Below are positions 1,555 to 37,556 of a stretch of 41,302 nucleotides of DNA, piece by piece. The translations under genes were made by a program, and so were the position numbers. Source of the DNA: Flavobacteriales bacterium (GTDB lineage: Bacteria > Bacteroidota > Bacteroidia > Flavobacteriales_G > JALEGO01). Every line of letters starts with the position of its first letter. Position 1 is the first letter of the stretch. The notes beneath the pieces are model-generated. The model worked only from the letters and a program-made list of their open reading frames with translations. It was not told where the DNA came from and did not search any database. The DNA lies in assembly GCA_020631045.1 (NCBI GenBank), contig JAHDHZ010000018.1, positions 4,210-45,511 of the forward strand, read 5' to 3'.

Positions 1555-2253
1555 TTAATAACCTAGATCGACAAAACTTTCAAGTAGATCTTGAATTTGT
1601 CGCTCAAAAACAGAATAGTCTACTGCTTTGAAATTAGAAGGTATTTCAAATGAACTCACATCAACAGGCTCAGAGCTAAAGCTTTCAGCAGTGAGTTTCA
1701 TTTTTAAACCCATACGGTCAATTTCATATTCTAGCGGAAGGCCTTCAAGTTTGTTAAACGGAAATGACCAATTGGGATCTTTAAAGTCGATTTGATCTGT
1801 GTAATAAAGGTCTTGCTTAGAGATTTTTGAAGAGGTTACTAAGGCTTTTTTAGCGTTGAATCCGACAATGTTTTTAGTTTCATTGGTTGGATTGATCAAT
1901 ACTTTGCCGTTTTCTTTTTTATGAATTTCTTGTACTTCTTCTTTGCTCAAAGTGCTTTTGATAAGCTGTCTGCCAAAAGCAAAGCTTTGTTCGAGCTCAT
2001 AGGTGTTTGAATTGCCCATCAATGTGATGACTAGCTGATCGTTTTTGGCAGCGAGCCTAGAATGAAACACATTGTCTTTAAATTGAAAGACCATCTGGCT
2101 AGGCATCATGCTGATTAAGAAATTGTCTTCTAATTCAGGATAGCTGACATTATAAATGATAGTGCCTTGATTAGGTTTTTCACTTTTACAAGCGCTGAGT
2201 AAAATAACACAACATAAAAGTGTGGCAATACTTAAAGAATGTAGGGTTCTCAT
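1555..2253 (-). CDS. Putative lipoprotein, DUF4412/GLPGLI-like
   Basis: This 232-aa protein begins with a lipoprotein signal peptide (residues 1-22, lipobox LLSAC), so it is probably anchored to a membrane facing the periplasm or surface. The body has features seen in DUF4412/GLPGLI-type Bacteroidota proteins: a GTIIYNVSYP strand near the N-terminus, TKNIVGFNAKKA in the middle and GLPLEYEI near residue 170. Such proteins are beta-rich and have no settled function. It lies directly upstream of ftsK in the same direction. Many Bacteroidota carry a LolA-type carrier near ftsK, and a distant LolA-like fold is possible, but I see no diagnostic motif. Family assignment is by resemblance only. Confidence 0.7.
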   Translation of the reverse strand: MRTLHSLSIATLLCCVILLSACKSEKPNQGTIIYNVSYPELEDNFLISMMPSQMVFQFKDNVFHSRLAAKNDQLVITLMGNSNTYELEQSFAFGRQLIKSTLSKEEVQEIHKKENGKVLINPTNETKNIVGFNAKKALVTSSKISKQDLYYTDQIDFKDPNWSFPFNKLEGLPLEYEIDRMGLKMKLTAESFSSEPVDVSSFEIPSNFKAVDYSVFERQIQDLLESFVDLGY

Positions 2254-2331
2254 ACTTACAAATATGGGTATTTTTTTGACTTAGGGTCATTTGAATGGCT
2301 GATTTTTGTATCTTTTTGGCAAAATAGTATC

Positions 2332-4077
2332 ATGATAAAAAAAGTTCTTTTAGTTGGTTTGGTGTTTTTTAGTGGCTTTTGGGTAAATGCTCAGTTAGAT
2401 TGCTCTTCAAATGTTGAACAGGTATTTTGTGGGCAAACCTTTGTGGGCGCATCAGCAAATGGCCTACCCAATAATGTGACTACTTATGCCTGTACAACCT
2501 GGACAGATATTGGTCCGGAGCGAGTACATACCTTTGTGCCTGTACAGAGCGGCAGCTATATGGTTGAGATTGATGGTTATACGGGGGATTTAGATGTTTT
2601 TGTGTTGACAGACTGTGATGCAAACACATGTGTGGGAGATTTGTATTCAGATAGTGTAGTTTGGAATGGTTTTGTGGCAGGGTCAACCTATTATATCGTT
2701 GTTGATTCAGATGATGGAAGTGCCTCAGGATATGAGTTGAATGTGCATTATTTAGATGGGGGTGGATCGTGCCCAGTTGTGACACAAGATTCTTGTGATG
2801 TTCAGTTAGGATTGGTTGCTGTTGATGAGGTTTCTTCAAATGGTGCTTCTGATGGATCAGTTGAGCTTCAAATCATTAATCAACCTACTAATTTTAGTAT
2901 TGGATGTTATGATTTTTCTGACGCATTCATTGGTTCTCCTGTATTAGATGGAGCAACTCAAAACTTCATTCTAGACAGTCTTGCCGTAGGTTCATATTAT
3001 GCCCGAGTACTTAATTTAGATGATACAAGCTGTTTTGATACTCTTCATTTTTCTGTTGTATTAGACAGTGCCGATACATCAATGACTTGTATGATGAGTG
3101 TAGATGTCTTTACTACAGAAGAAACAGCAACAAATGCTTCTGATGCAAGTGCTTGGTTAGAAGTGATTGGTGCAGTGGGTAATGTGAATATACTTTGGAG
3201 TACTGGACAATTCTCAGATTCTATTTCTGGTTTGTCGGCTGGCAATTATAGTGTTGTTGTGACAGATTCATTGAATTGTGTAGAGACAAAGTTTTTTCAG
3301 ATCTCAACCCTTCAAGATACTTCTTGTAATCTTACATTACAAGTCTTTAAAACAGATGAAACTGCTCAAGGAGCAGCAGATGGCTCTGCTACTGCTACTG
3401 CAAGCGGTGCTCAGGGAGCAGTTGCTTATTTTTGGAGCACAGGTGAGACAACAGGGGTGATCAATAATTTGGCACCTTCAACTTATGCTTTGACAATTAC
3501 TGATAGTGCAGGATGTACCGCGAGTTCTACAGTAACAATATTGGCCTATTCTGATTCATCTTCTCAAGGAGCAGATTCATGTGATTTTACAATTGCTGTA
3601 AATACAGCTAATGAAACAATGTCTGGGGCTTCTGATGGTTCTGCAACTGTTCAGGTGAATGGTCCGAACGGAACTTATACATACCAATGGAATACCGGTC
3701 AAAGTGGCCCTGCTTTGTATAATTTAGAGCAAGGCGTTTACTTAGTAACTGTTAGTGATCAAAATAACTGTACTCAAATTGGGTTTAGCTCTGTGGGAGT
3801 TGATGACCCTGTTTTTGTACATCAAAAAATGAAACATCAGTTGAGGGGTTACCCTAATCCTGTAAATGATCAATTATTTATTGATCTAGCAGAGCATCAA
3901 ATTAGTATAATTAAAGTCTTTGATCAGACTGGTAAAATGGTTTTGATCAAATCTACAGGTTTAGATAAAAATCTTATAAGTCTTTCGGTTGGTCAATTGT
4001 CAAAAGGGATTTATTCGGTTAAACTACTTGCTGAAGATGCTCAGGTGTTTTGCTTGAATTTTATCAAGTTAGACTAA
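2332..4077 (+). CDS. Secreted T9SS type A cargo with PPC-like domain and SprB-type repeats
   Basis: This 581-aa protein has a signal peptide (residues 1-20, ending VNAQ). Next comes a Cys-containing pre-peptidase C-terminal (PPC)-like beta domain (about 22-140), containing VHTFVPVQSGSYMVEIDG and DVFVLTDCD. About four SprB-type repeats follow (about 155-490), recognised by recurrent NASDGS, WSTG and LxxGxYxVxVTDxxxC patterns. The C-terminus (about 505-581) is a type A T9SS sorting domain opening with GYPNPVNDQLFID and ending KGIYSVKLL. It should cross the outer membrane through the type IX system and stay at the surface or be released. No catalytic motif is visible, so an adhesin role is an inference. 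Its stop overlaps the stop of the convergent phosphoesterase gene by four bases. Confidence 0.9.
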   Translation: MIKKVLLVGLVFFSGFWVNAQLDCSSNVEQVFCGQTFVGASANGLPNNVTTYACTTWTDIGPERVHTFVPVQSGSYMVEIDGYTGDLDVFVLTDCDANTCVGDLYSDSVVWNGFVAGSTYYIVVDSDDGSASGYELNVHYLDGGGSCPVVTQDSCDVQLGLVAVDEVSSNGASDGSVELQIINQPTNFSIGCYDFSDAFIGSPVLDGATQNFILDSLAVGSYYARVLNLDDTSCFDTLHFSVVLDSADTSMTCMMSVDVFTTEETATNASDASAWLEVIGAVGNVNILWSTGQFSDSISGLSAGNYSVVVTDSLNCVETKFFQISTLQDTSCNLTLQVFKTDETAQGAADGSATATASGAQGAVAYFWSTGETTGVINNLAPSTYALTITDSAGCTASSTVTILAYSDSSSQGADSCDFTIAVNTANETMSGASDGSATVQVNGPNGTYTYQWNTGQSGPALYNLEQGVYLVTVSDQNNCTQIGFSSVGVDDPVFVHQKMKHQLRGYPNPVNDQLFIDLAEHQISIIKVFDQTGKMVLIKSTGLDKNLISLSVGQLSKGIYSVKLLAEDAQVFCLNFIKLD

Positions 4078-4571
4078 GAAACTGTTTTTAGCTCTATGGC
4101 CTGCATGTCTGTGATACGTGCTTTGTCAATTGTGAAGCGTAGAAGTGTGCTTACTTGTTGAAAACCATGCTTGCCTGCAGCTCCTGGATTCATATGTATG
4201 AGGTTTCTGGGCTTATCTGGCATCACTTTTAAGATGTGTGAATGTCCGCAGATGAAAACATCAGGTTGTTCTCTGTTGAGTAACTCGTGTATCGTGGGTT
4301 TGTATTTGGGTGGATATCCGCCAATGTGTGTGATGACAATTTTCATACCCTCACATTTAAAAATGGCATTTTTTTGGGTGCGCACTCGAATGTTTTGACC
4401 ATCAATATTTCCGTATACGGCAATGGTTGGTTTGAACGCTTCAAGGGTGTCTAAAACATCGAGTGTTCCGATGTCACCCGCATGCCAGATTTGATCACAT
4501 TCTTTAAAATGTTTGAAGATGCTGGGGTGTAAATATCCGTGTGTGTCAGAAAGAAGTCCGATTCTTTTCAA
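4074..4571 (-). CDS. YfcE/MJ0936-family metallophosphoesterase
   Basis: A 165-aa calcineurin-like phosphoesterase of the small YfcE/MJ0936 type. All metal ligands are visible: D9 and H11 (SDTHG), D33 (GD), N55 (YGNID), H82 (THIGG) and the terminal GHSH at 109-112. These enzymes hydrolyse phosphodiesters with Mn or similar metals in the cytosol; the natural substrate is usually unknown. The length is normal for the family. It is transcribed against both flanking genes. Its 5' end lies 52 bases from the start chosen for truA, and the two probably share a divergent promoter region. Confidence 0.92.
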   Translation of the reverse strand: MKRIGLLSDTHGYLHPSIFKHFKECDQIWHAGDIGTLDVLDTLEAFKPTIAVYGNIDGQNIRVRTQKNAIFKCEGMKIVITHIGGYPPKYKPTIHELLNREQPDVFICGHSHILKVMPDKPRNLIHMNPGAAGKHGFQQVSTLLRFTIDKARITDMQAIELKTVS

Positions 4572-4610
4572 AATAATCTGCTTATTTTACGAATTTAGAT
4601 GCATTGCTCA

Positions 4611-4618
4611 TAACTTTG
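4611..4618 (+). promoter_or_regulatory. Bacteroidota -7 promoter element before truA
   Basis: TAACTTTG matches the Bacteroidota -7 consensus TAnnTTTG exactly. Transcription would begin about five bases after it, near 4623, almost on the GTG chosen as the truA start, so the message may be leaderless. I see no convincing -33 element at the right distance, so this is a moderate call. Confidence 0.45.
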
Positions 4619-4623
4619 TATTT

Positions 4624-5367
4624 GTGCAACGCTTTTTTTTAAAACTGGGGTTTGATGGTAGTGCTTATCATGGTTGGCAAATTCAGCCCAACGCACATAC
4701 CGTGCAAGCTGAGCTTGAAAAGGCTTTAAGTACGCTACTCGGTGACTCAATTAGTGTGGTGGGTTGTGGTAGAACAGATACAGGAGTGCATGCTAAGAAA
4801 TTCTATGCCCATTTTGAACTTAAAGAAGCACAATTACCAGACAACTTTGTCTTTAAGCTCAACAGGTTGTTGAGTGATGATGTAGTGGTTTATGACTGTT
4901 TTAAAGTAGATGCCCAAACCCACGCACGCTTTAGCGCTCATTTGCGATCATATGCCTATTATATGACCTATGAAAAAGCGTTGTTTGACCGCCAGTTTGT
5001 TTTAAAAGTAAGAGGCGCTTTGAATACAGGCTTGATGAATCAGGCTTGTGAACATTTGATTGGGGTGCATGATTTTAGCTCATTTTGTAAGTCAAAAACC
5101 AACAACCATCATTTTGAGTGTGATTTGTATGAAGCTCGAGTGATTGAAGGTGAAGGTGGTTTGGTTTTTGAGGTGTCTGCTAATCGATTTTTGAGAGGTA
5201 TGGTACGTGCTTTGGTAGGTACATTAATTGAGGTGGGCAAACAAAAAATAACACCTCAAGAGTTTAAAAGTATTTTAGAATCAAAAGACAGAACTCGAGC
5301 AGCAGCTAATGTAAAGCCACATGCTTTATTTTTGACAGACATTCAATATGAAAATATAAGTGCATGA
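4624..5367 (+). CDS. truA: tRNA pseudouridine synthase A
   Basis: TruA converts U38-U40 of the tRNA anticodon arm to pseudouridine. With GTG at 4624 as start the protein is 247 aa, the usual length, and opens in the family's normal way (RFFLKLGFDG then AYHGWQ). The catalytic aspartate is D52 in GRTDTGVHA. Other conserved parts are HDFSSFCK and the C-terminal FLRGMVRALVGTLIEVG. An ATG exists at 4513, but it would add 37 residues that do not fit the family and would overlap the opposing phosphoesterase gene by 59 bases, so I reject it. The stop overlaps the start of the ABC transporter gene (ATGA), indicating cotranscription and translational coupling. Confidence 0.95.
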   Translation: MQRFFLKLGFDGSAYHGWQIQPNAHTVQAELEKALSTLLGDSISVVGCGRTDTGVHAKKFYAHFELKEAQLPDNFVFKLNRLLSDDVVVYDCFKVDAQTHARFSAHLRSYAYYMTYEKALFDRQFVLKVRGALNTGLMNQACEHLIGVHDFSSFCKSKTNNHHFECDLYEARVIEGEGGLVFEVSANRFLRGMVRALVGTLIEVGKQKITPQEFKSILESKDRTRAAANVKPHALFLTDIQYENISA

Positions 5368-13080: not shown

Positions 13081-14628
13081 ATGAGTCAAGTGAATATTTT
13101 ATGGGCTGATGATGAGATCGATCTTTTAAAGCCGCATATTCTTTTTTTACAAGAAAAAGGATATGAAGTACAGCCTGTTTCAAATGGGTTTGACGCCTTA
13201 GAAGCGGTCAAGCAATCAAATTTTGATGCTGTTTTACTTGATGAAAATATGCCAGGTTACTCAGGTTTAGATACCTTAGGTGAGATAAAAAAAATCAAAC
13301 CTTCTTTGCCTGTGATAATGATTACAAAAAGCGAAGAAGAACAGATTATGGAACAAGCCATTGGTTCAAAGATTTCAGATTATCTGATTAAGCCAGTAAA
13401 TCCAAAACAGATCTTACTTTCGCTAAAGAAAAACCTGCAAGACAAGAAGCTTATTCAAGAAACCTCTGCGCAATCTTATCAGCAAGAATTTCGAAAAATA
13501 GCCATGCAAATGAATGGTAGGTTAGATTTGCAAGGCTGGTGCGATATTTATAAGCAACTTTCTTATTGGAGTATTGAGCTTGATGCGGCAAGCAATGACT
13601 TAAAACAAATACTCAACAATCAAATGAAAGAGGCCAATGTTTTGTTTTCAAAATATGTCGATCAAAATTATGCTGATTGGCTTTCAGGATCATCTGAAGA
13701 ATCTTCTTTGATGTCTCATACGCTTTTAAAAGAAAAATATTTTTCAAATCTGACAAATCAAACCAGCTTTTTACTTGTGATCGACAACTTGAGGTATGAT
13801 CAATGGCTTGTGTTAAAGCCTCTTATGCAGCAATATTTTACAGTTGATCAAGAAGGCATATATTCAAGCATTTTGCCCACAGCTACCCATTATGCTAGAA
13901 ACAGTTTATTTGCCGGTTTGTTGCCTTCAGAAATTGAAAAAATCTACCCAGATTTGTGGCTAAGTGAAGAAGATGAGGGCAGTAAAAATAAACATGAGCA
14001 TGACTTATTTAACCGTTTGTTGAAACGCACTGGCAAGCAATTGAAAACCTCATATGCCAAAGTTTTAAATTCTTCTTTCGGAAAGAAAGTCAATGATAAT
14101 TTTCATCAAATGCTTAACAATGACATCAATGTTGTGGTGTACAACTTCATTGATATGCTTTCTCATGCAACAACAGATACCAGGTTAGTCAAAGAATTGG
14201 CAGAAAGCGATGCGGCTTATCGCTCTGTTGTGCAAACTTGGTTTGAGCATTCAACATTAAAAGAATTGCTTATAGCTATTGCAGATTCTAAAAAGCAAGT
14301 GTTCATTACAACCGATCATGGCACCATTCAGGTTGATGAGCCTGTTAAGGTAATTGGCGATAAACATACCAATACCAATTTAAGGTATAAGGTGGGTAAA
14401 AACTTAAGCTTCAATGAAAAAGAAGTGTATTTGGTTGATCATCCATCAGAAATATTTTTGCCAAAAGCCAATGTAAGCTCAAAGTATATTTTTGCAAAAG
14501 ACACAGGCTTTTTTGCCTATCCAAACAATTTTAATCACTACGTAAAGTATTATCAGAATACCTTTCAACACGGCGGAATTTCAATGCAAGAAATGTTGAT
14601 TCCTTTTGCTTTGCTGAGCGCAAAATAA
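13081..14628 (+). CDS. porX: T9SS response regulator PorX (receiver plus PglZ domain)
   Basis: This 515-aa protein has an N-terminal receiver domain (1-120) with acidic pocket D10-D11, phospho-acceptor D54 in LLDENMPG, T81 (MITKS) and K103 in LIKPVNP. A helical linker follows, and then a C-terminal PglZ (alkaline-phosphatase-like) domain from about 210 with LVIDNLRYDQW, THYARNSLFAG, the TTDHGTIQV metal site and a final HGGISMQEMLIP. In Porphyromonas and Flavobacterium, PorX works with the kinase PorY and a sigma factor to control T9SS genes, and its PglZ domain binds zinc and acts on oligonucleotides. No histidine kinase is encoded nearby. It starts 69 bases from the divergent HD gene and is followed 52 bases later by a T9SS cassette. 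Confidence 0.95.
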   Translation: MSQVNILWADDEIDLLKPHILFLQEKGYEVQPVSNGFDALEAVKQSNFDAVLLDENMPGYSGLDTLGEIKKIKPSLPVIMITKSEEEQIMEQAIGSKISDYLIKPVNPKQILLSLKKNLQDKKLIQETSAQSYQQEFRKIAMQMNGRLDLQGWCDIYKQLSYWSIELDAASNDLKQILNNQMKEANVLFSKYVDQNYADWLSGSSEESSLMSHTLLKEKYFSNLTNQTSFLLVIDNLRYDQWLVLKPLMQQYFTVDQEGIYSSILPTATHYARNSLFAGLLPSEIEKIYPDLWLSEEDEGSKNKHEHDLFNRLLKRTGKQLKTSYAKVLNSSFGKKVNDNFHQMLNNDINVVVYNFIDMLSHATTDTRLVKELAESDAAYRSVVQTWFEHSTLKELLIAIADSKKQVFITTDHGTIQVDEPVKVIGDKHTNTNLRYKVGKNLSFNEKEVYLVDHPSEIFLPKANVSSKYIFAKDTGFFAYPNNFNHYVKYYQNTFQHGGISMQEMLIPFALLSAK

Positions 14629-14680: not shown

Positions 14681-15451
14681 GTGTATAGTACATTGAGTAG
14701 GTATAAATCACATATTTTAAGCTTTGTTTTTGTTGTTTTGGGTGGATGGGTTTCTCAACTTAACGGTCAAATTCAAGTGTCAAGACAAGTGTTTTCTAGT
14801 TTGGGTTCTTGGGCAGGCAATGCTGATTTTTTAGTGAGTTACACTGTAGGCCAATCAATTGTTTCTACTCAAAATGATAATCAGTTTACGCTTACACAAG
14901 GCTTTGAACAGCCTTTAAGAAAAGGCTTAATTGTACAAGTCTCAGTGATGCACCCCAAGTGTGCAAATTCGCAAGATGGCGCTGTTTTTTTTAGGGTGTT
15001 TGACGGATCAGGATTTTATGATCTTGTCTTTGGTTCGACCAATTTAAGTCTCGCCCAAGATACTTTTTTGGTTGAAGGATTATCTGAAGGAGTGTACACG
15101 GTTTATTTCAAAGATCAGGTAACAGATTTAGAACGTGTATTAAATGTAGAGTTGCAAAGTGAAGATGGTCAAGATTGTGGTGTGTTTGCTTACACTGGTA
15201 TTTCGGTGAACGCTGATGGATTAGATGATCAGTGGTATATTGAAAAAATTGAAGAATATTCAGAAAATAAGGTTTACATCTATGACCGTTGGGGTAATTT
15301 GGTTTGGCAGACTGTAGGGTATGATAACGCTTCAAATTTTTGGAACGGCAAAGACCAAAGCCAAAATGATTTGCCCACTGGAACCTATTTTTACCTTATT
15401 GAATTAAATACAAAAGAATCGTTGAAAGGGTGGGTGCAGCTTACAAAATAA
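14681..15451 (+). CDS. Small T9SS type B cargo (gliding motility-associated C-terminal domain)
   Basis: This 256-aa exported protein starts at GTG 14681; TTG at 14693 is an alternative. The signal peptide (about 1-29) ends QLNGQ. Residues 30-85 form the motif common at the start of such cargos (SYTVGQSIVST, then LTQGFEQP). Residues 90-160 form one SprB-like beta repeat (PKCANSQDGAVFF, LSEGVYTVYF). Residues 170-256 are a complete type B sorting domain: ISVNADGLDDQWYI, VYIYDRWGNLVW, FWNGKD, LPTGTYFYLIEL and a final KGWVQLTK. Type B cargos are often thousands of residues long, so this one is little more than a sorting tail. Its end overlaps the PorP/SprF gene by 22 bases. Confidence 0.9.
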   Translation: MYSTLSRYKSHILSFVFVVLGGWVSQLNGQIQVSRQVFSSLGSWAGNADFLVSYTVGQSIVSTQNDNQFTLTQGFEQPLRKGLIVQVSVMHPKCANSQDGAVFFRVFDGSGFYDLVFGSTNLSLAQDTFLVEGLSEGVYTVYFKDQVTDLERVLNVELQSEDGQDCGVFAYTGISVNADGLDDQWYIEKIEEYSENKVYIYDRWGNLVWQTVGYDNASNFWNGKDQSQNDLPTGTYFYLIELNTKESLKGWVQLTK

Positions 15452-16380: not shown

Positions 16381-19300
16381 TGGGCACAAAACATACATAT
16401 TATCTGATAAAGACTTTATTTTTTATATTGCTGTTTAGTCAAGTCATCAATCTCAATGCACAGAAAAAGGCAGATCATTTTTATGAGCAAGGCTTTTACG
16501 CCAAAGCAGCTGCGCTTTATGCAAAAAAGCTTAAGAAAGACACGACTGATGCTTTGCTTTCAAAACTTGCTAAAAGCTATTTGAAAGTTAAAAATTACGA
16601 TCAGGCAGAACACTATTTTTCTCATCTCGCAGCAAGAAAAGGAATGAGTCACTCTCAGGCACTTTCATATTTAGAGGTGTTGAAAAACAATTCAAAATGG
16701 CAAGATGCCAAGCAAGTTGTGGCGGTTTATGCTCAAGGAGCTCAGCAGCAGTTTTTAGCTGATTTTGATCAAAAAAATCTTCTCGATCAAAAAAAAGCCT
16801 TTTTCTCAGTTGATAAGGTTCATGGCATCAATACAAAAGGTTCTGAATATGGTGTAATTAAATACAAAGATTCTTCAGTGATTTTTGTAAGCGATCGAAT
16901 AAAAGATTTAAACTATTATGAGTTAGATCAGACTACTTTAAAGCCTTATTACGGTTTGTTTAAAGCAGATTTAGTGGGTGGTGATTATATTGACAAGATC
17001 AGTAAAATGAAAGGGCATTTTCAGTATGATTACCATATTGGGCCCATCACATTTGATTCTGCCTATCAAGTGGCAGTATTCAATAAAATTCAAAATCTAA
17101 AAAAGGGGCCAGGCTTTGTCAATAAGCCTCAGTTGTACATCTCTTACTTTAAATCTGGTCGCTGGACAAAACCTCAAGGGCTCGTGTTCAATGACTTAAA
17201 CCATTCGTATGCTCATCCTAGCTTATCTAAAGATGGTAAGACGCTTGTATTTTCATCAGATTTAAAGGGGTCAAAAGATTTGTATGTTTCTTATTTTGAA
17301 AACGGGCAATGGAAAAGTCCTGAGAGGTTGAGTAGTGAGGTCAATTCGCCAAAAGATGAGGTTTTTCCGTTCTTAAAAGATGATTCAACACTTTTTTTCG
17401 CCTCTAATGGTTTTCAAGGTTTGGGTGGATTAGACTTGTACGTCTCACACAAAACAAGCAAAGGCTGGTCTGACGCTCAAAACCTTCGTAGGCCCATCAA
17501 TTCAAATAGAGATGATTTTTCGATTGTGTTTTTTGATGAGCAGACAGGTTATTTTGCTTCAGATCGAAAACAAGGCTTAGGAAAAGATGATATCTACCGT
17601 TTTCAGCAAATTGAAGCCCTTGAAGATAAAACTGATTTGAAAGGTGTGTTTTTTTATTCGCAACTCAAGCGTTCTGTAAGAGAAAAGCTTTTATTGTATG
17701 ATCTTGATGATCAGCTGATTGATATTGCTTATACCGATGATACTGGGGCTTTTGTTTTTCGTAATGTAGATGCTAAAATGCAGTATTCTATCAGGCCAGA
17801 AAAGGCGCAACATCCCATAACAGATCAAACAACGATTGAATTGCAAAACTTGAGTACCAAGCAGATTTTAGTTATCAAGCCCAACGAGCAAGGAGCATTT
17901 ATGTTTAATACTCTGCCTTTAGATACTTCTGAAAAACTAGTGCGTCTAGAAGCTGTAGATCATCAAATGTTTGTGCCTGTTATTCAAGGAAAAGTCTACA
18001 CGAAACTATCAGCAGATAAAAGTGAGTTGATTCAAATTGCGTTGGTCGATGAGAGCGGAAAGATTATTCAAACTGTTTTTGCAGATCAAAATGGCAATTT
18101 TACATTTAAAAACTTGCCGTTAGACCGAAGCTACCGCTTACAAGTGCTAAATGCTGAAAACAGTACCATTGATTTGTTTGATGCTCAAGGGAGGTTGATT
18201 GCCAAACTCAAAGATTCAGATAAAGGTTTTGTTTATTCACACTTACAGAAAGATGCGTTTGCTTTGAGTCTGTTAGAGAATCTAATTGATGATCAACAGC
18301 TGTTGACTTCTGTAAATGCTATGCTTAAGCTTGAGCAAGAAGAAGATTTGCCGGTGAAGTTAATCTTGTATGACGATCAAAATCACGCATTAGATACTTT
18401 AATTACTGATCAGCAAGGAAGGTTTGAGCTTTCAGATGTGCAACTTTATAAATCCTATAAATTAAAAGTCGAAGGCTTAGCTGATCAGCAAAGCTTATCT
18501 GAAATATTCATTCAAAATGATCAAGGTGTTTTTGTGCAGTCTTTGTATAAAGAAGGAGCATATCATTACTTCACAGCTCTTACAAGAGAAGAGTATGGGG
18601 CTTTACAGCCTTTGGTGCTTGATAAAGGGCGTTTCATAGCGGGTAAGGTTTATGAGTTTTTGCCTGGAGATGTTCCTGCTGGCTTGTCGGTTTATTTGTT
18701 AAATGATCAGCATGAGCGTATTGAGCAGGTTGCTTTAGATGAGTATGGGAATTTTAGATTTCAAACCCTTGCTGGTGATAAGCAGTATTTAATTGAGTTG
18801 GATGAGCGAATCTCTGATTTTGCAAAACTATTTGTTTTTGATGCAGGCAATCAACTCAGTGAGGCACAAAGAAGAAAAGATGGCTCTTTTGAATACAAAT
18901 TCTTAAAAAGACAAATAGACTTTTTACAAGATGTTATTGAGCATGAGAAGGCTTATTTATCACTCTTCATTAAAAGTCAGCAAAAATTTGAGGGTTCTCT
19001 TCAGCTTTTAGACGATCAGTTAAATACCATTAGAGACCTTTCTTATGATCATCAAAACTGTTTGATTGATCAAATTGATTTGTATAAGTACTATCATGTT
19101 CGTTGCAAAGAGGTAGGTCAGGCTAGCTTAATTGAAAATATGTTTGCATTGAATAGCAAGCAAGAAAAGGTGATGCCTTTACTTAAGGTTGATGATCAAA
19201 CCTATAAATTTTATGCTTTACATGGCTATGAATACGATGCCTTGCCAACTATGACTATAGATGAACAGCAAGATCAGTTGATGGCACATGTTTATTCTAA

Positions 19301-20984: not shown

Positions 20985-21034
20985 AAAGCATAAAAAAAGG
21001 GGGATTGTTTTCAATTCCCCTTTTTTTATGCTTT
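20985..21034. terminator. Strong bidirectional terminator after rpmF
   Basis: A 23-bp stem (one G-T pair) with a TTTT loop: AAAGCATAAAAAAAGGGG at 20985-21002 pairs with CCCCTTTTTTTATGCTTT at 21017-21034, extended by ATTG/CAAT. The A-run and T-run in the stem make it work on both strands. It separates the convergent rpmF and bacilliredoxin genes. Confidence 0.9.
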
Positions 21035-22692: not shown

Positions 22693-23255
22693 TACTTATT
22701 GTTGTAGTCGCTCATAATTTTTGAGATAGATTGAAAAGTGAAATCAAGCACCAATTGATAGCATTTTTCAATTCTTTCATCTAGCAGATTACTTTCTTGA
22801 TCAGTCCACTTACCTAAGACATAATCAGACTGCTTTCCTCTTTGAAAATTATTACCTACGCCAAAGCGTAATCTTGGGTACTTGCTTGTCTGCAGTATAT
22901 TTTGAATGTCTTTAAGCCCGTTATGCCCCCCGTCAGAACCTTTTGATTTTACTCGAATTGTTCCAAAATCAAGAGCAATGTCGTCTGTGATAATCAAAAG
23001 CTTGTCTGTGTCAACTTTTAAACTATCTTTCCAGTACCTCACTGCCTTTCCGCTTAGATTCATAAAGGTAGTTGGCTTGATCATATGAACTGACCTGCCT
23101 CTGTGTTTGAAATTGCAATATTCTGCATAGCGATCTGCAGAAAAAAAAACACTAGACTTTTGAGCAATAAAGTCTAGTGTTTTAAAACCAATGTTGTGAC
23201 GAGTATTTGTATACTCATCGCCAGGATTTCCCAGGCCGACGATTAAATACTTCAT
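22692..23255 (-). CDS. pth: Peptidyl-tRNA hydrolase
   Basis: Pth releases peptides from peptidyl-tRNA that drops off the ribosome. The 187-aa protein shows N10 and H20 (VGLGNPGDEY, NTRHNIGF), KPTTFMNLSG, the catalytic-Asp region ITDDIALDFG, and SDGGHNGLKDI. Length and motifs are normal. It follows rplY by 22 bases and overlaps the kdsB start by one base. The prs-rplY-pth order seen here is, from memory, common in Bacteroidota and links nucleotide supply and translation. Confidence 0.97.
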   Translation of the reverse strand: MKYLIVGLGNPGDEYTNTRHNIGFKTLDFIAQKSSVFFSADRYAEYCNFKHRGRSVHMIKPTTFMNLSGKAVRYWKDSLKVDTDKLLIITDDIALDFGTIRVKSKGSDGGHNGLKDIQNILQTSKYPRLRFGVGNNFQRGKQSDYVLGKWTDQESNLLDERIEKCYQLVLDFTFQSISKIMSDYNNK

Positions 23256-24926: not shown

Positions 24927-25349
24927 ATGCCCAAAAGAATTACACTAGAATTTGACGTAGATTTAGATTTTTATATGTGTGCCATTTCGTGCCATCATAT
25001 GGATTATCGTTTGTGTTGGAATTTGAACAAATTTTTAGGCTTAACACTTTGTAAAAAAGAAGATTACAGTCTTAATCTAGCCAAGGGAAAATCTGATTTT
25101 TATTCAAAATATACTTTTAGAAACGAGGTTAAAAAACTCGATTATACCTTAGTTTCAAATAAGGGTCATGAGACATATTTAGTGAAAGAGCATCCGTATT
25201 TTGATTATTTTTTAATTGTTGATGGATACACCGATGATGATTTTAAGCTGCAGGTACTTACTCAAATTCAAAATATTCCTGAAGTTTTGATGGGTACGGT
25301 GCTTGATCCTAATGAACTTAAAAGCAAAGTAAACTTAATATTTGATTAG
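24927..25349 (+). CDS. IPExxxVDY-family protein
   Basis: A 140-aa cytosolic protein of the Bacteroidota family named after an IPExxxVDY motif. It matches the family's general course: LDFYMCAISCHHMDYRLCWNLN near the start, LVSNKGHETYL, FDYFLIVDGY, and the ending LKSKVNLIF. The naming motif itself is altered here (IPEVLMGTVLD). The function is unknown; relatives often lie beside pyruvate kinase, which is not in this window. Its last 15 bases overlap the convergent SpoIID gene, so there is no room for a separate terminator. Confidence 0.8.
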   Translation: MPKRITLEFDVDLDFYMCAISCHHMDYRLCWNLNKFLGLTLCKKEDYSLNLAKGKSDFYSKYTFRNEVKKLDYTLVSNKGHETYLVKEHPYFDYFLIVDGYTDDDFKLQVLTQIQNIPEVLMGTVLDPNELKSKVNLIFD

Positions 25350-27644
25350 CCTAATGGCTTTGTTTTTATCTTGACTCTGTAGATAATATAATCCACTGGA
25401 TAGGTCTGATAGGTCAATGGTTTTTTGGGTGGATTGTTCTTCAAAGTCATAGGTGATAATCAAAGCACCGATCTGATTGAAGATATGAAGCTTGTCAATT
25501 GATTGATTTGATTTTATGTGGATTTGATCATTGAAGGGGTTTGGGAAAACTTGAAGTTGTGTTTCTTGAGTGAAAATATTTGATGTACTTAATGAATCAA
25601 ATGGAATCGTCACATCAAAAAGGTATTGACAGCCCACATTGTCTTGTACGTGTACATCATACTGGCCTGCTTGAGCTTGTTCAAGAGTAAGGCCTTGGCT
25701 GACTTGTGTGTTTAAAATCCAAGTAACTTGGTAGGGTTCAAATCCACCCCAAAGAGAGGCGTTTGCTGAGCCGTCATTGCCCGAGGTGGCTGGATTAATC
25801 TCAAAATTTGCTTGTAGGTTACAGGCTGGTCCGTTGATGTTAAAAATTCTAAAGTCGCTGCATCCTGCTGCATCTTCTATTTCTAAAGTATATTCACCCA
25901 TCGATAGATTTTCAAATTCATGTAGTTCTAGACTTGTTGAGTATTTTATAGTGTCTTGCTGATCAGAAATTAAGGTTAAGTAGTAGGGGGGCAATCCACC
26001 CGAAAAAAAAGCGTGGGCCAATCCATCAGTAGCAGAAAAAGTATTTGAGGCATAGGTGTGCACAGAGTCAAGGGTCAATGATGTTGAAGATTTCAGACTT
26101 TGGCAGCTGCCAGTTTGTGCATCGTGAATGATTTCAATGGTGAAATCTTGGCCTGAATCTTGCTGTTGATCAAGAATGAAATGAACTGGGATTCCGGCCC
26201 AGGCTGGGTAGATTTCTAGAGTGTTATAGGCGTAATCTTGGCAGACTTGATCACTGCAATTTAGCAAGTGATAAATGGTTACATCTGAGTTGTTGTTGGT
26301 GATTTTGATCGTATATGCTCCATCGTGAGAGGGCGTGAATGAAAAGTGGTGCTCGGGTCCGCTGTGTAGATCAGGAGCTGTGCAACTGTATTGGTCGATT
26401 TGAGAAGTTGTGCTTCCCATGATGTTATAGGTCGTGTTTTCAAGTAAGGTGGTATATTTTGTGCTGCAACTATCAGGAATTGTATCAAAATTTGCAATGC
26501 AGATGTTGGTGTAATATCTGTTTAAAATTTGATCAAAGGTATAGTTGTAATGCGTGCCTAAAACCATCATTCCGCGCTGACACATGCCTACTCCATGGCC
26601 GTAAACATTTCCGTAACTCCCTGTTTGTGAGTTGTATACTTCGCAGCATGGGTTTTCGTTTCTTGCCTGACAATTTGAGTGACCTGTGCAATTGACACTT
26701 TTTAAATAGCCTTTTGATTTGCCCTCAGGGGAGCAATGTGCATAAGGTACCCAGGTGCCTTCGGTGGCATCTTGAGTACGCTGTCCGTTGCAACGAGCGT
26801 GGTACTTGGCGTCAATTACTTTATTGTTGTATAGAATGACAATTTTTGATGTGGCATGTGCCGCTTGAATAGAAAGTGTGTCGGGATTGTAACTAAAGGC
26901 TTGGTTGATGTTAACAGGTTTTTGATTGAGGTGTCTGTATAAAGAGTAGGTTCTTGCAGCAACTGCTTGTGCTTTTTTTGCCTCTAAACTTGATGAGTAT
27001 GCGACCTCTCCGTTCACGACTCCTGCCACGTATTCATCAAAGTGAATGTAGCCTGTAAATCCGTTTCCGATGAGTCTGCCGTTGTAGTCATTTACAAGGT
27101 TTTGAACAAAGACATAATCGGGTACTTCGCTAAATGTACAAGATGATTTTTGGCTTGAGTTGTGGTATTTAGAAGCATCTTCAAATTCATGTATGGCTTG
27201 CATTTGCGCACGTTTGATGTTTTGTTTGTGTATGATTTTTTTTTGTTTAGCCTCAATTTCAATTTGCTCTTCTTGGGATGGATGTTTTTTAATGCATGTG
27301 ATTTGTTGTGCTTGTTTAGCGTTAAAATAAAGTGTTTGGTTAGTTTGGTAATCTTTGGAGTTTGTTTCAATGATGTATATGCCTTGTTGGCTGAGAGAAT
27401 TAAAGGTGTATCGACCTTCTTTGTTAGTTGTGGTTTCACCTACAAGTTTTGATTGGTTGCTGGGCAGCAATAATGGATAGCCTTTGTGATAACCTACAGC
27501 TCTTTGATAGATCTTTACTGTTTGGTTTTTTAGAGGTTTTTGAGAAACAAAGTCAATGATTTTACCAGTGACTTGGGTGTTGAGCTCTTGATTTGGTGAA
27601 AAAGAGAGTAGGCAGATGAAAAGTTTCAGTAAGTGTTTGTTCAT
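25335..27644 (-). CDS. SpoIID/LytB-domain protein with T9SS type A sorting tail
   Basis: Starting at ATG 27644 (a frame-compatible ATG lies 36 bases upstream), the protein has 769 aa. It has a signal peptide (about 1-24), a CarboxypepD_reg-like fold (about 24-110), a basic linker and a SpoIID/LytB domain (about 190-390). That domain carries FDEYVAGVVNGEV, KAQAVAARTYSLY, CNGQRTQDATEG and YGHGVGMCQRGM. Next come a PPC-like beta domain (about 400-510), two SprB-like repeats (about 530-680) and a type A sorting domain starting VFPNPFNDQIHI. SpoIID enzymes cleave peptidoglycan glycan strands lacking stem peptides. Carriage of a T9SS tail implies action outside the outer membrane. The PPC-like domain resembles that of the cargo at 2332. 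Confidence 0.9.
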   Translation of the reverse strand: MNKHLLKLFICLLSFSPNQELNTQVTGKIIDFVSQKPLKNQTVKIYQRAVGYHKGYPLLLPSNQSKLVGETTTNKEGRYTFNSLSQQGIYIIETNSKDYQTNQTLYFNAKQAQQITCIKKHPSQEEQIEIEAKQKKIIHKQNIKRAQMQAIHEFEDASKYHNSSQKSSCTFSEVPDYVFVQNLVNDYNGRLIGNGFTGYIHFDEYVAGVVNGEVAYSSSLEAKKAQAVAARTYSLYRHLNQKPVNINQAFSYNPDTLSIQAAHATSKIVILYNNKVIDAKYHARCNGQRTQDATEGTWVPYAHCSPEGKSKGYLKSVNCTGHSNCQARNENPCCEVYNSQTGSYGNVYGHGVGMCQRGMMVLGTHYNYTFDQILNRYYTNICIANFDTIPDSCSTKYTTLLENTTYNIMGSTTSQIDQYSCTAPDLHSGPEHHFSFTPSHDGAYTIKITNNNSDVTIYHLLNCSDQVCQDYAYNTLEIYPAWAGIPVHFILDQQQDSGQDFTIEIIHDAQTGSCQSLKSSTSLTLDSVHTYASNTFSATDGLAHAFFSGGLPPYYLTLISDQQDTIKYSTSLELHEFENLSMGEYTLEIEDAAGCSDFRIFNINGPACNLQANFEINPATSGNDGSANASLWGGFEPYQVTWILNTQVSQGLTLEQAQAGQYDVHVQDNVGCQYLFDVTIPFDSLSTSNIFTQETQLQVFPNPFNDQIHIKSNQSIDKLHIFNQIGALIITYDFEEQSTQKTIDLSDLSSGLYYLQSQDKNKAIRLIKY

Positions 27645-27699
27645 GTAAATTTTAACGAAAAAGAGTGTGATAGGTTTCATTATAGATAAAGGCGCTTTG

Positions 27700-27758
27700 A
27701 AATACTTGTTTTGAGTGCGGTCAAACGCAAGGTTTGAATGTACTCAAAACAAGTATTT
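27700..27758. repeat. Hairpin unit 1 of an intergenic array
   Basis: A 17-bp perfect outer stem begins AAATACTTG and closes CAAGTATTT. It surrounds a GCGG/ATGT internal loop and the inner stem TCAAAC/GTTTGA with loop GCAAG. It is followed by a flank (GCTATTTTAACATGA) that recurs after unit 2, 108 bases downstream. Confidence 0.9.
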
Positions 27759-27801
27759 CTTCGCTATTTTAACATGAGGGTGTGGGCTTTATATTGCCAA
27801 G

Positions 27802-27872
27802 GCTTTGAAGTATTTGTTTTCAGTGCGGTCAAACACAAGGTTTGAATGCACTGAAAACAAATACTTCAAAGC
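27802..27872. repeat. Hairpin unit 2 of an intergenic array
   Basis: A 25-bp perfect outer stem begins GCTTTGAAGTATTTG and closes CAAATACTTCAAAGC. The inner stem is TCAAAC/GTTTGA with loop ACAAG. Relative to unit 1 the outer stem carries three paired (compensatory) changes. The right flank GCTATTCTAACATGA matches that of unit 1. Confidence 0.9.
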
Positions 27873-27917
27873 TATTCTAACATGAAGTTTTGTGCTTTGA
27901 TAAGGTTTTTGAATTGC

Positions 27918-27960
27918 CTTCTTCAGGCACTCAAAGCTTGCCTTTGTTAGCCTAAAGAAG
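27918..27960. repeat. Hairpin unit 3 of an intergenic array, reverse orientation
   Basis: The outer stem CTTCTTCAGGC pairs with GCCTAAAGAAG (one mismatch). The inner stem CAAAG/CTTTG has the loop CTTGC, which is the complement of the GCAAG loop of unit 1. Compared with the other units the inner stem's closing C-G pair is swapped to G-C. Confidence 0.75.
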
Positions 27961-27987
27961 TTGATTTAAAACTACGTATATGTTTAA

Positions 27988-28055
27988 GCTTCAAAAAAGG
28001 CTTTTACGTGCATTCAAACCTTGCGTTTGACAGCACTAAAAGGCTTTTTTGAAGC
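27988..28055. repeat. Hairpin unit 4 of an intergenic array, reverse orientation
   Basis: The outer stem begins GCTTCAAAAAAG and closes CTTTTTTGAAGC, about 19 bp with one mismatch, continued by GTGC/GCAC. The inner stem TCAAAC/GTTTGA has the loop CTTGC. The core is the reverse complement of that in units 1 and 2. No T-run follows, so it is not a classical terminator. The rest of the 27681-28152 gap holds no gene that I can support. Confidence 0.85.
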
Positions 28056-28152: not shown

Positions 28153-28479
28153 TTAGTGACTTTGTTTCACAGCAGTGCCGCTGCAAGCAACCATAAGCAT
28201 GCTGCCGCGTGCTCCAATGGTTTCATAGTCAAAATCTACAGCGATCAAAGCATTTGCTCCCATTGCTGAGGCTTTTTCTTGTAACTCTCTTAAAGCAGTG
28301 TCTTTGGCTTGAACCAACACTTGTTCGTAAGAAGTTGATCGTCCGCCAAAAAAATCTCTTAGAGAGGCAAAAATATCACGCACGACATTTGCTCCAATGA
28401 TGACCTCTGAGGTGACCACTCCAAGATATTCGATGTTTTTGTTTTGTAGAGTTGAGGTTGTTGTAGTAAGCATAATCAC
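28153..28479 (-). CDS. YbjQ/UPF0145 family protein
   Basis: A 108-aa small protein of the YbjQ (DUF74, heavy-metal-binding domain) family. The marks are the opening IEYLGVVTSEVIIGANVVRD, DFFGGRSTSYE, the long helix with ALRELQEKASAMGANALIAVDFDYE and the end SMLMVACSGTAV. Members form pentamers; the proposed metal-binding role is unproven. Met1 and Met3 are both possible starts. It follows the deoxynucleoside kinase by five bases, so the two are probably one transcript, ending upstream of the hairpin array. Confidence 0.92.
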   Translation of the reverse strand: MIMLTTTTSTLQNKNIEYLGVVTSEVIIGANVVRDIFASLRDFFGGRSTSYEQVLVQAKDTALRELQEKASAMGANALIAVDFDYETIGARGSMLMVACSGTAVKQSH

Positions 28480-36707: not shown

Positions 36708-37475
36708 ATGTCAGTAATCAATCAAGGAGATGTTTTAGTAACCCTAAATAAAACAATTTCAACCATTGAATTTAATCACCCTTTAAGCAATTCTTTGCCC
36801 GGAAAACTCCTTTCTAAACTTGTAAATACAATCACTGAGCAAGGTGAAAATGATGAGGTGAACGTCATTGTCCTAAAAAGTGCTGGTGAGCGTGCTTTTT
36901 GTGCTGGAGCTTCTTTTGATGAACTTATTGCCATTAAAGATCTCGAGCAAGGCAAAGAGTTTTTCTCTGGTTTTGCAAGGGTAATCAATGCGATGCGCAA
37001 GTGCCCTAAATTTATCATTGGTAGAGTACAGGGTAAAGCTGTTGGTGGAGGGGTTGGATTAGCCGCTTCTGTTGATTATTGTTTGGCTACAAAATATGCA
37101 TCTGTCAAGCTCTCAGAATTAGCCATTGGGATTGGACCTTTTGTTGTTGGACCTGCAGTAGAGCGCAAGCTAGGGTTGGCTGCTTTTTCTGATATGAGCA
37201 TCAATGCCACCGAGTGGAAATCTGCCCAGTGGGCTCAGCAAAAAGGTTTGTTTAGTGAAGTTTATGAAGATGCGTACATGCTTGATCATAAAGTTGAAGA
37301 ATTGGCAGAAAGACTTTCAAAATTTAATCCTGAGGCGATGAAACGTCTGAAAAAAGTATTTTGGCAAGGCACAGATCATTGGGATACACTTTTATTTGAT
37401 CGTGCTGAAGATAGTGGTCAGTTAGTGCTTTCTGAGTTTACTAGAAATGCGATCAACAGTTTTAAGAAGAAGTAA
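36708..37475 (+). CDS. Enoyl-CoA hydratase/isomerase family protein
   Basis: This 255-aa crotonase-fold enzyme shows the two oxyanion-hole regions (RAFCAGASFDEL and GKAVGGGVGLAASVDYCLA) and a conserved Glu in LSELAIGIGP, followed by FVVGPAVERKLG. Crotonases hydrate or isomerise acyl-CoA thioesters in fatty or branched-chain amino acid breakdown. The exact substrate cannot be read from the sequence; a methylglutaconyl-CoA hydratase-like role is possible. No neighbouring beta-oxidation genes are present. The stop codon's last base begins a large palindrome. Confidence 0.9.
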   Translation: MSVINQGDVLVTLNKTISTIEFNHPLSNSLPGKLLSKLVNTITEQGENDEVNVIVLKSAGERAFCAGASFDELIAIKDLEQGKEFFSGFARVINAMRKCPKFIIGRVQGKAVGGGVGLAASVDYCLATKYASVKLSELAIGIGPFVVGPAVERKLGLAAFSDMSINATEWKSAQWAQQKGLFSEVYEDAYMLDHKVEELAERLSKFNPEAMKRLKKVFWQGTDHWDTLLFDRAEDSGQLVLSEFTRNAINSFKKK

Positions 37476-37556
37476 TGGAGCATTTTCAGCATGCTTTTTG
37501 GTATCCGACAAACTAAAGTTTGAAGTCCTCCAAAAAGCAGCTTGAAAATGCTCCAT
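37475..37556. repeat. Large palindrome between convergent genes
   Basis: ATGGAGCATTTTCA pairs with TGAAAATGCTCCAT, then TGCTTTTTGG with CCAAAAAGCA. After a 7/7 internal loop, CAAAC/GTTTG closes on a TAAA loop. The long outer stem, internal loop and CAAAC/GTTTG tip repeat the design of the array at 27700-28055. It fills the whole gap between the convergent hydratase and sugar transferase genes and may end transcription on both strands. Confidence 0.85.

Follow-up and report, generated by a model that had tools for sequence, protein, structure and literature searches.

The window, the whole stretch of 41,302 nucleotides analysed here from contig JAHDHZ010000018.1 of a Flavobacteriales bacterium, carries an array of four hairpins between two genes that are both encoded on the reverse strand. 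A gene for a protein with a SpoIID domain and a Por-secretion tail (25335-27680) lies on one side with its start towards the array, and a YbjQ family gene (28153-28479) lies on the other with its stop codon towards it. Each hairpin has a common core, which we call the tip, flanked by longer complementary arms. Units 1 (27699-27759) and 2 (27802-27872) are on the forward strand; the tip of the former, in orientation A, is found at 27715-27743 (GTGCGGTCAAACGCAAGGTTTGAATGTAC), and that of the latter at 27823-27851, where the half-arms are 33 nt long and the outer stem is perfect. The other two units are on the reverse strand, namely unit 3 (27907-27971; tip 27925-27953; 55 bits), whose arms are degraded, and unit 4 (27988-28055; tip 28008-28036; 67 bits). 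Measured against shuffled sequences, the folds of units 1, 2 and 4 reach z scores between about -7 and -13, whichever strand is read; that of unit 3 is weaker (z of -2.7 on the forward and -4.3 on the reverse strand), yet real.

The four inverted repeats with a common core described in the initial annotation are thus confirmed, unit 3 being the weakest, and so is the 108-base duplication of units 1 and 2 (27694-27898, forward strand), which shows 84% identity across 97 nt. The three paired changes reported between the stems of these two units (C-G/T-A, A-T/G-C and G-C/C-G) are also present, together with two one-sided changes, and the inner closing pair of unit 3 is indeed flipped to G-C from C-G. 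Two corrections concern the core, which is rendered directional by a conserved 2x2 mismatch and is present at many places beyond this locus.

A fifth member of the same family (37476-37556, forward strand; 57.9 bits with the longer covariance model described below) occupies the whole gap between two convergent genes, the stops of which are at 37475 and about 37562. The window also contains long hairpins without the tip at 20985-21034 and 23146-23183, the latter with a T-tract and resembling an ordinary terminator.

The family comprises 56 distinct places in the 2.34-Mb, 86-contig Bacteroidota assembly, as counted from two covariance models combined. The first (R1), built on 24 copies, found about 50 places, and the second, longer model (R2), built on 49 copies, raised the total to 56; in a DNA search of the same assembly the matches were spread over many contigs. 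The copies are numerous, extragenic and present in both orientations, and are typically 60-95 nt in length. Most are intergenic and tend towards gene ends, often within 20 nt of a stop codon; counting only contexts supported by the sister species, 22 are tandem, six convergent and four divergent. The copy at C58:30136 had been considered as an overlap with a gene end, and this was rejected because it sits upstream of a carbamoyltransferase-like ORF, from which it follows that the preference for 3′-ends is a tendency and not a rule. The orientation of the tip is independent of gene direction, and close pairs in opposite orientation occur at C19:16388/16490 and C82:48052/48166. A search for long hairpins that was blind to the tip, carried out on 325 kb of this genome picked around the copies, returned 33 hairpins, 29 of which belong to the family, and none in shuffled DNA. 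Lone half-tips are limited to one in 334 kb.

Read in one orientation, the tip has the consensus CTTTT-N2-GTGC-YG-WCAAAS-loop(4-5)-STTTGA-RK-GCAC-N2-AAAAG, spanning about 45 nt, and it is directional because YG stands opposite RK as a conserved 2x2 mismatch. The arms behave differently. When the copies are aligned on the loop, most positions more than about 20 nt away from it carry less than 0.3 bit of information, whereas Watson-Crick pairing holds at about 0.8 up to position 34, is about 0.6 up to position 39, and sinks to the background of about 0.3 past position 45. The arms are uncorrelated in sequence between copies but complementary out to about 42 nt; the outer arms contain 1180 Watson-Crick pairs, 66 mismatches and 20 gaps. 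Among the 49 copies there are 483 double-changed cells versus 165 ± 11 in shuffled data (covariation score 0.625 versus 0.157), and the covariation falls sharply once one arm is slid by a single base.

Some copies lie within larger dispersed repeats. Those of type I are 200-300 bp in length, begin with CCGTTCAAGCATACAGAAAA, possess a GATCC..GGATC hairpin and contain a degraded family hairpin (L010:300-720, 4600-4990, 14080-14320, 14890-15270 and 18600-18890; L057:4600-5000). At least five copies are found on contig C45 amid genes for SUF, FeoB and AdoHcyase; this copy-rich contig was considered as a mobile element and rejected, since with these genes it is core chromosome. Locus L010 also encodes a 955-aa protein (1742-4609) with five DUF285 stretches, in a Flavobacteriales genome; DUF285 is a family named from Mycoplasma. 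The type II repeat, of about 200 bp, surrounds a family hairpin and has four copies (L010:6440-6640, L012:10040-10200, L017:5030-5190, and L009:6000-6198 with L069:1-80), inside one of which falls the overlap of contigs C54 and C26.

The stems of type II copies differ through compensated changes, the pair on C54 and C84 showing five of these and no single change. Type I copies on C45 are told apart by single changes without compensation, so that correction of the arms is not universal. The initial annotation took paired changes to point to selection on, or copying of, structure rather than sequence; the copying part of that remark holds. BLAST of 25-nt arms against the family's own loci and the sister species revealed no source for the arms; the only matches were short AT-rich ones, the sibling type I and type II repeats, and the C54/C26 contig overlap. 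Extended gapped alignments of the arms, which are noisy in AT-rich DNA, gave no general proof of flank duplication.

In two cases the inner part of the hairpin is inverted. The tip of the C54 copy is reversed relative to its flanks, the left flank matching, in reverse complement, what is normally the right flank (score 53 versus 7), and the other side was confirmed on the continuation contig C26; the arms of this copy are perfect. At C19:16388 the loop alone is inverted, reading CTTTG for CAAAG. At C82:48166, and only there, a degraded inverted similarity extends beyond the hairpin into the end of the adjacent coding sequence, as would be expected if the flank had been copied.

The family is lineage-specific. 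The initial annotation named the lack of further copies in any relative as a refutation; relatives indeed have none, but the genome itself has about 50 extra copies. Covariance searches did not find the family in the sister species (G001), the one other genome of the genus that was searched, nor in the other order-mates searched, where the single R1 match (in G007) was rejected as a chance match within a tyrosine-recombinase gene. It was likewise not found in the rest of 247 genomes of the class, 245 in all apart from the sister, by a lower-sensitivity search that recovered 18 copies in the home genome. The exact tip pattern is absent from 84,980 genomes, a collection that possibly does not include the present one, and from IMG/VR. 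In 0.93 Mb of the sister species there are three long hairpins, all of them outside the family, and shuffled DNA gave none. The convergent genes around C82:48052/48166 are 188 nt apart here versus 4 nt in the sister, and those around C44:32196 are 341 nt apart versus about 22 nt, a comparison that is not base-exact for empty sites, since gene order is rearranged and intergenic DNA diverged. Such gaps indicate that this species gained the hairpins, or that they disappeared from the sister along with the whole of the intervening DNA. Two sister contigs (L094:8503-8554 and L093:9531-9583) end exactly at an orthologous intergenic site and share GGGTCTTGACTAGTTAAGAGGT; another repeat is possibly located there.

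We interpret the array as one site of a lineage-specific, REP-like family of extragenic hairpins, the arms of which are made and kept complementary by DNA template switching, and we assign this reading a probability of roughly 60%. The data suggest copying between the arms in DNA, not the preservation of an RNA by natural selection. Homogenisation of arms together with inversion of the loop or spacer is the pattern ascribed to DNA template switching (PMC8794818), and inversion of this kind is also given as its signature in PMC8604942. In the present family the arms are near-perfect Watson-Crick complements with compensated changes, type I copies excepted, and the spacer is inverted between conserved flanks in the C54 copy, as is the loop at C19:16388. 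From these end states we infer template switching.

During replication, template switching or copying by fold-back would create and maintain the complementary arms: the nascent strand would fold back at the tip and copy its own flank, or one arm would be corrected from the other. What is recognised and spread would be the tip, through a putative activity acting on folded DNA, and each round of local copying would leave arms behind as by-products; the tip could instead be kept by selection for a protein-binding site. No reverse transcriptase was found in the genome. SbcD attacks DNA hairpins, and no match to it above the cut-off was found in this genome or in the sister; a genus without recognisable SbcD may let such hairpins persist. 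Loss of SbcD was rejected as the cause of the expansion, because its absence from both leaves the contrast between the two species unaccounted for.

We also considered whether the tip alone might be a mobile single-stranded DNA (or cDNA) hairpin from which, at each insertion, fold-back copying of the host flank is primed over about 25-30 nt; we regard this as unlikely. Were this true, every insertion would build its own palindrome, and the footprint of transposition would be an inverted rather than a direct target duplication. No reverse transcriptase was found in the genome.

Selection for the fold of a structured RNA, or of an mRNA 3′-end element acting as stabiliser or regulator, would account for the strong covariation across copies and for the many hairpins within 20 nt of stop codons, but we think it quite unlikely. 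Were an RNA helix under selection, G-U should be commoner than A-C; in the transcribed direction of the gene next to them, the outer arms have 11 G-U, 13 A-C and 19 other mismatches, and so show no sign of RNA-type selection. The orientation of the tip, moreover, is unrelated to gene direction, four contexts are divergent, and the hairpins match no Rfam family. The structured noncoding RNA suggested in the initial annotation is therefore not upheld.

The same annotation had raised REPIN- or MITE-like elements moved by a RAYT-type transposase, and here a dispersed palindrome family is confirmed and the transposase is not supported. The dispersed, extragenic copies in both orientations, the close opposite pairs on C19 and C82, and the directional stem mismatch, as in E. 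coli REPs, are all consistent with REP/REPIN-type elements moved by RAYT (TnpA-REP) acting on single-stranded hairpins. Yet Y1_Tnp (PF01797) has no match in this 98.6% complete genome, the same search being positive in five control genomes, and no GTAG or CGTC tetranucleotide lies beside the palindrome, where the only conserved positions are CTTTT..GTGC..GCAC..AAAAG. REP palindromes are, in addition, 20-50 nt in length and are sorted into families by a shared stem and loop, whereas at 60-95 nt these copies are longer, their outer stems are unshared, and the tip alone is held in common. Movement by a RAYT is, in our view, very doubtful. No parent element, such as a MITE would have, was noticed.

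Intrinsic transcription terminators with a conserved loop are highly improbable; placement near stop codons and between convergent genes would suit them, but the copies lack the T-tract that should follow a GC-rich hairpin in the gene sense. The frequency of T after the hairpin is at background (3.57 versus 3.60 per 10 nt), the polarity of the tip, with T to its left and A to its right, is wrong for a terminator, and in the window the terminator pattern is seen in one sub-stem of unit 3 only. That the tip was inserted into pre-existing long palindromes, much as certain IS elements enter REPs or terminators, with arms of old host sequence, has next to no chance of being correct, since the few tip-less long hairpins that exist (20985-21034 and 23146-23183 in the window) belong to a rare class (three in 0.93 Mb of the sister against 56 family copies), and the two clear insertion sites span 4 and about 22 nt between the sister genes.

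Known REP-like repeats conserve the stem; here the stem is nearly free, and only the tip and the complementarity persist. The roughly 56 copies of this single genome form a natural data set with which selection on structure can be separated from templated DNA copying, a problem still open for how perfect hairpins arise. Strong covariation across copies is usually read as the mark of a functional RNA, and the family warns that it can also arise where RNA is not under selection.

The ends of IS200/IS605 elements carry a directional imperfect hairpin tip, a feature that these ends and their non-autonomous derivatives share with the family; the family differs in that no Y1 transposase was found and the arms are unique. 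REP, BIME and REPIN elements of the GTAG and CGTC families are dispersed extragenic palindromes which, like the present hairpins, occur in either orientation, frequently separate tandem or convergent genes, and have a conserved stem mismatch that gives direction (PMC8266576, PMC3733652). Unlike these, our family has no tag tetranucleotide and no RAYT gene, is longer, and combines a conserved tip with copy-specific arms. Hairpins attributed to template switching (PMC8794818) or to quasipalindrome correction resemble it in their near-perfect stems, compensated changes without wobble bias, and inversion of the loop or spacer; they have been described for individual RNA genes and mutational hotspots, not for bacterial repeats that are dispersed and carry a common tip. 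The inverted repeats of Nematomorpha mitochondria lie in mitochondrial coding sequence and apparently have no common tip; as there described they are, like our hairpins, many, near-perfect and copy-specific, and active conversion between the arms has been proposed for them (PMC6649704).
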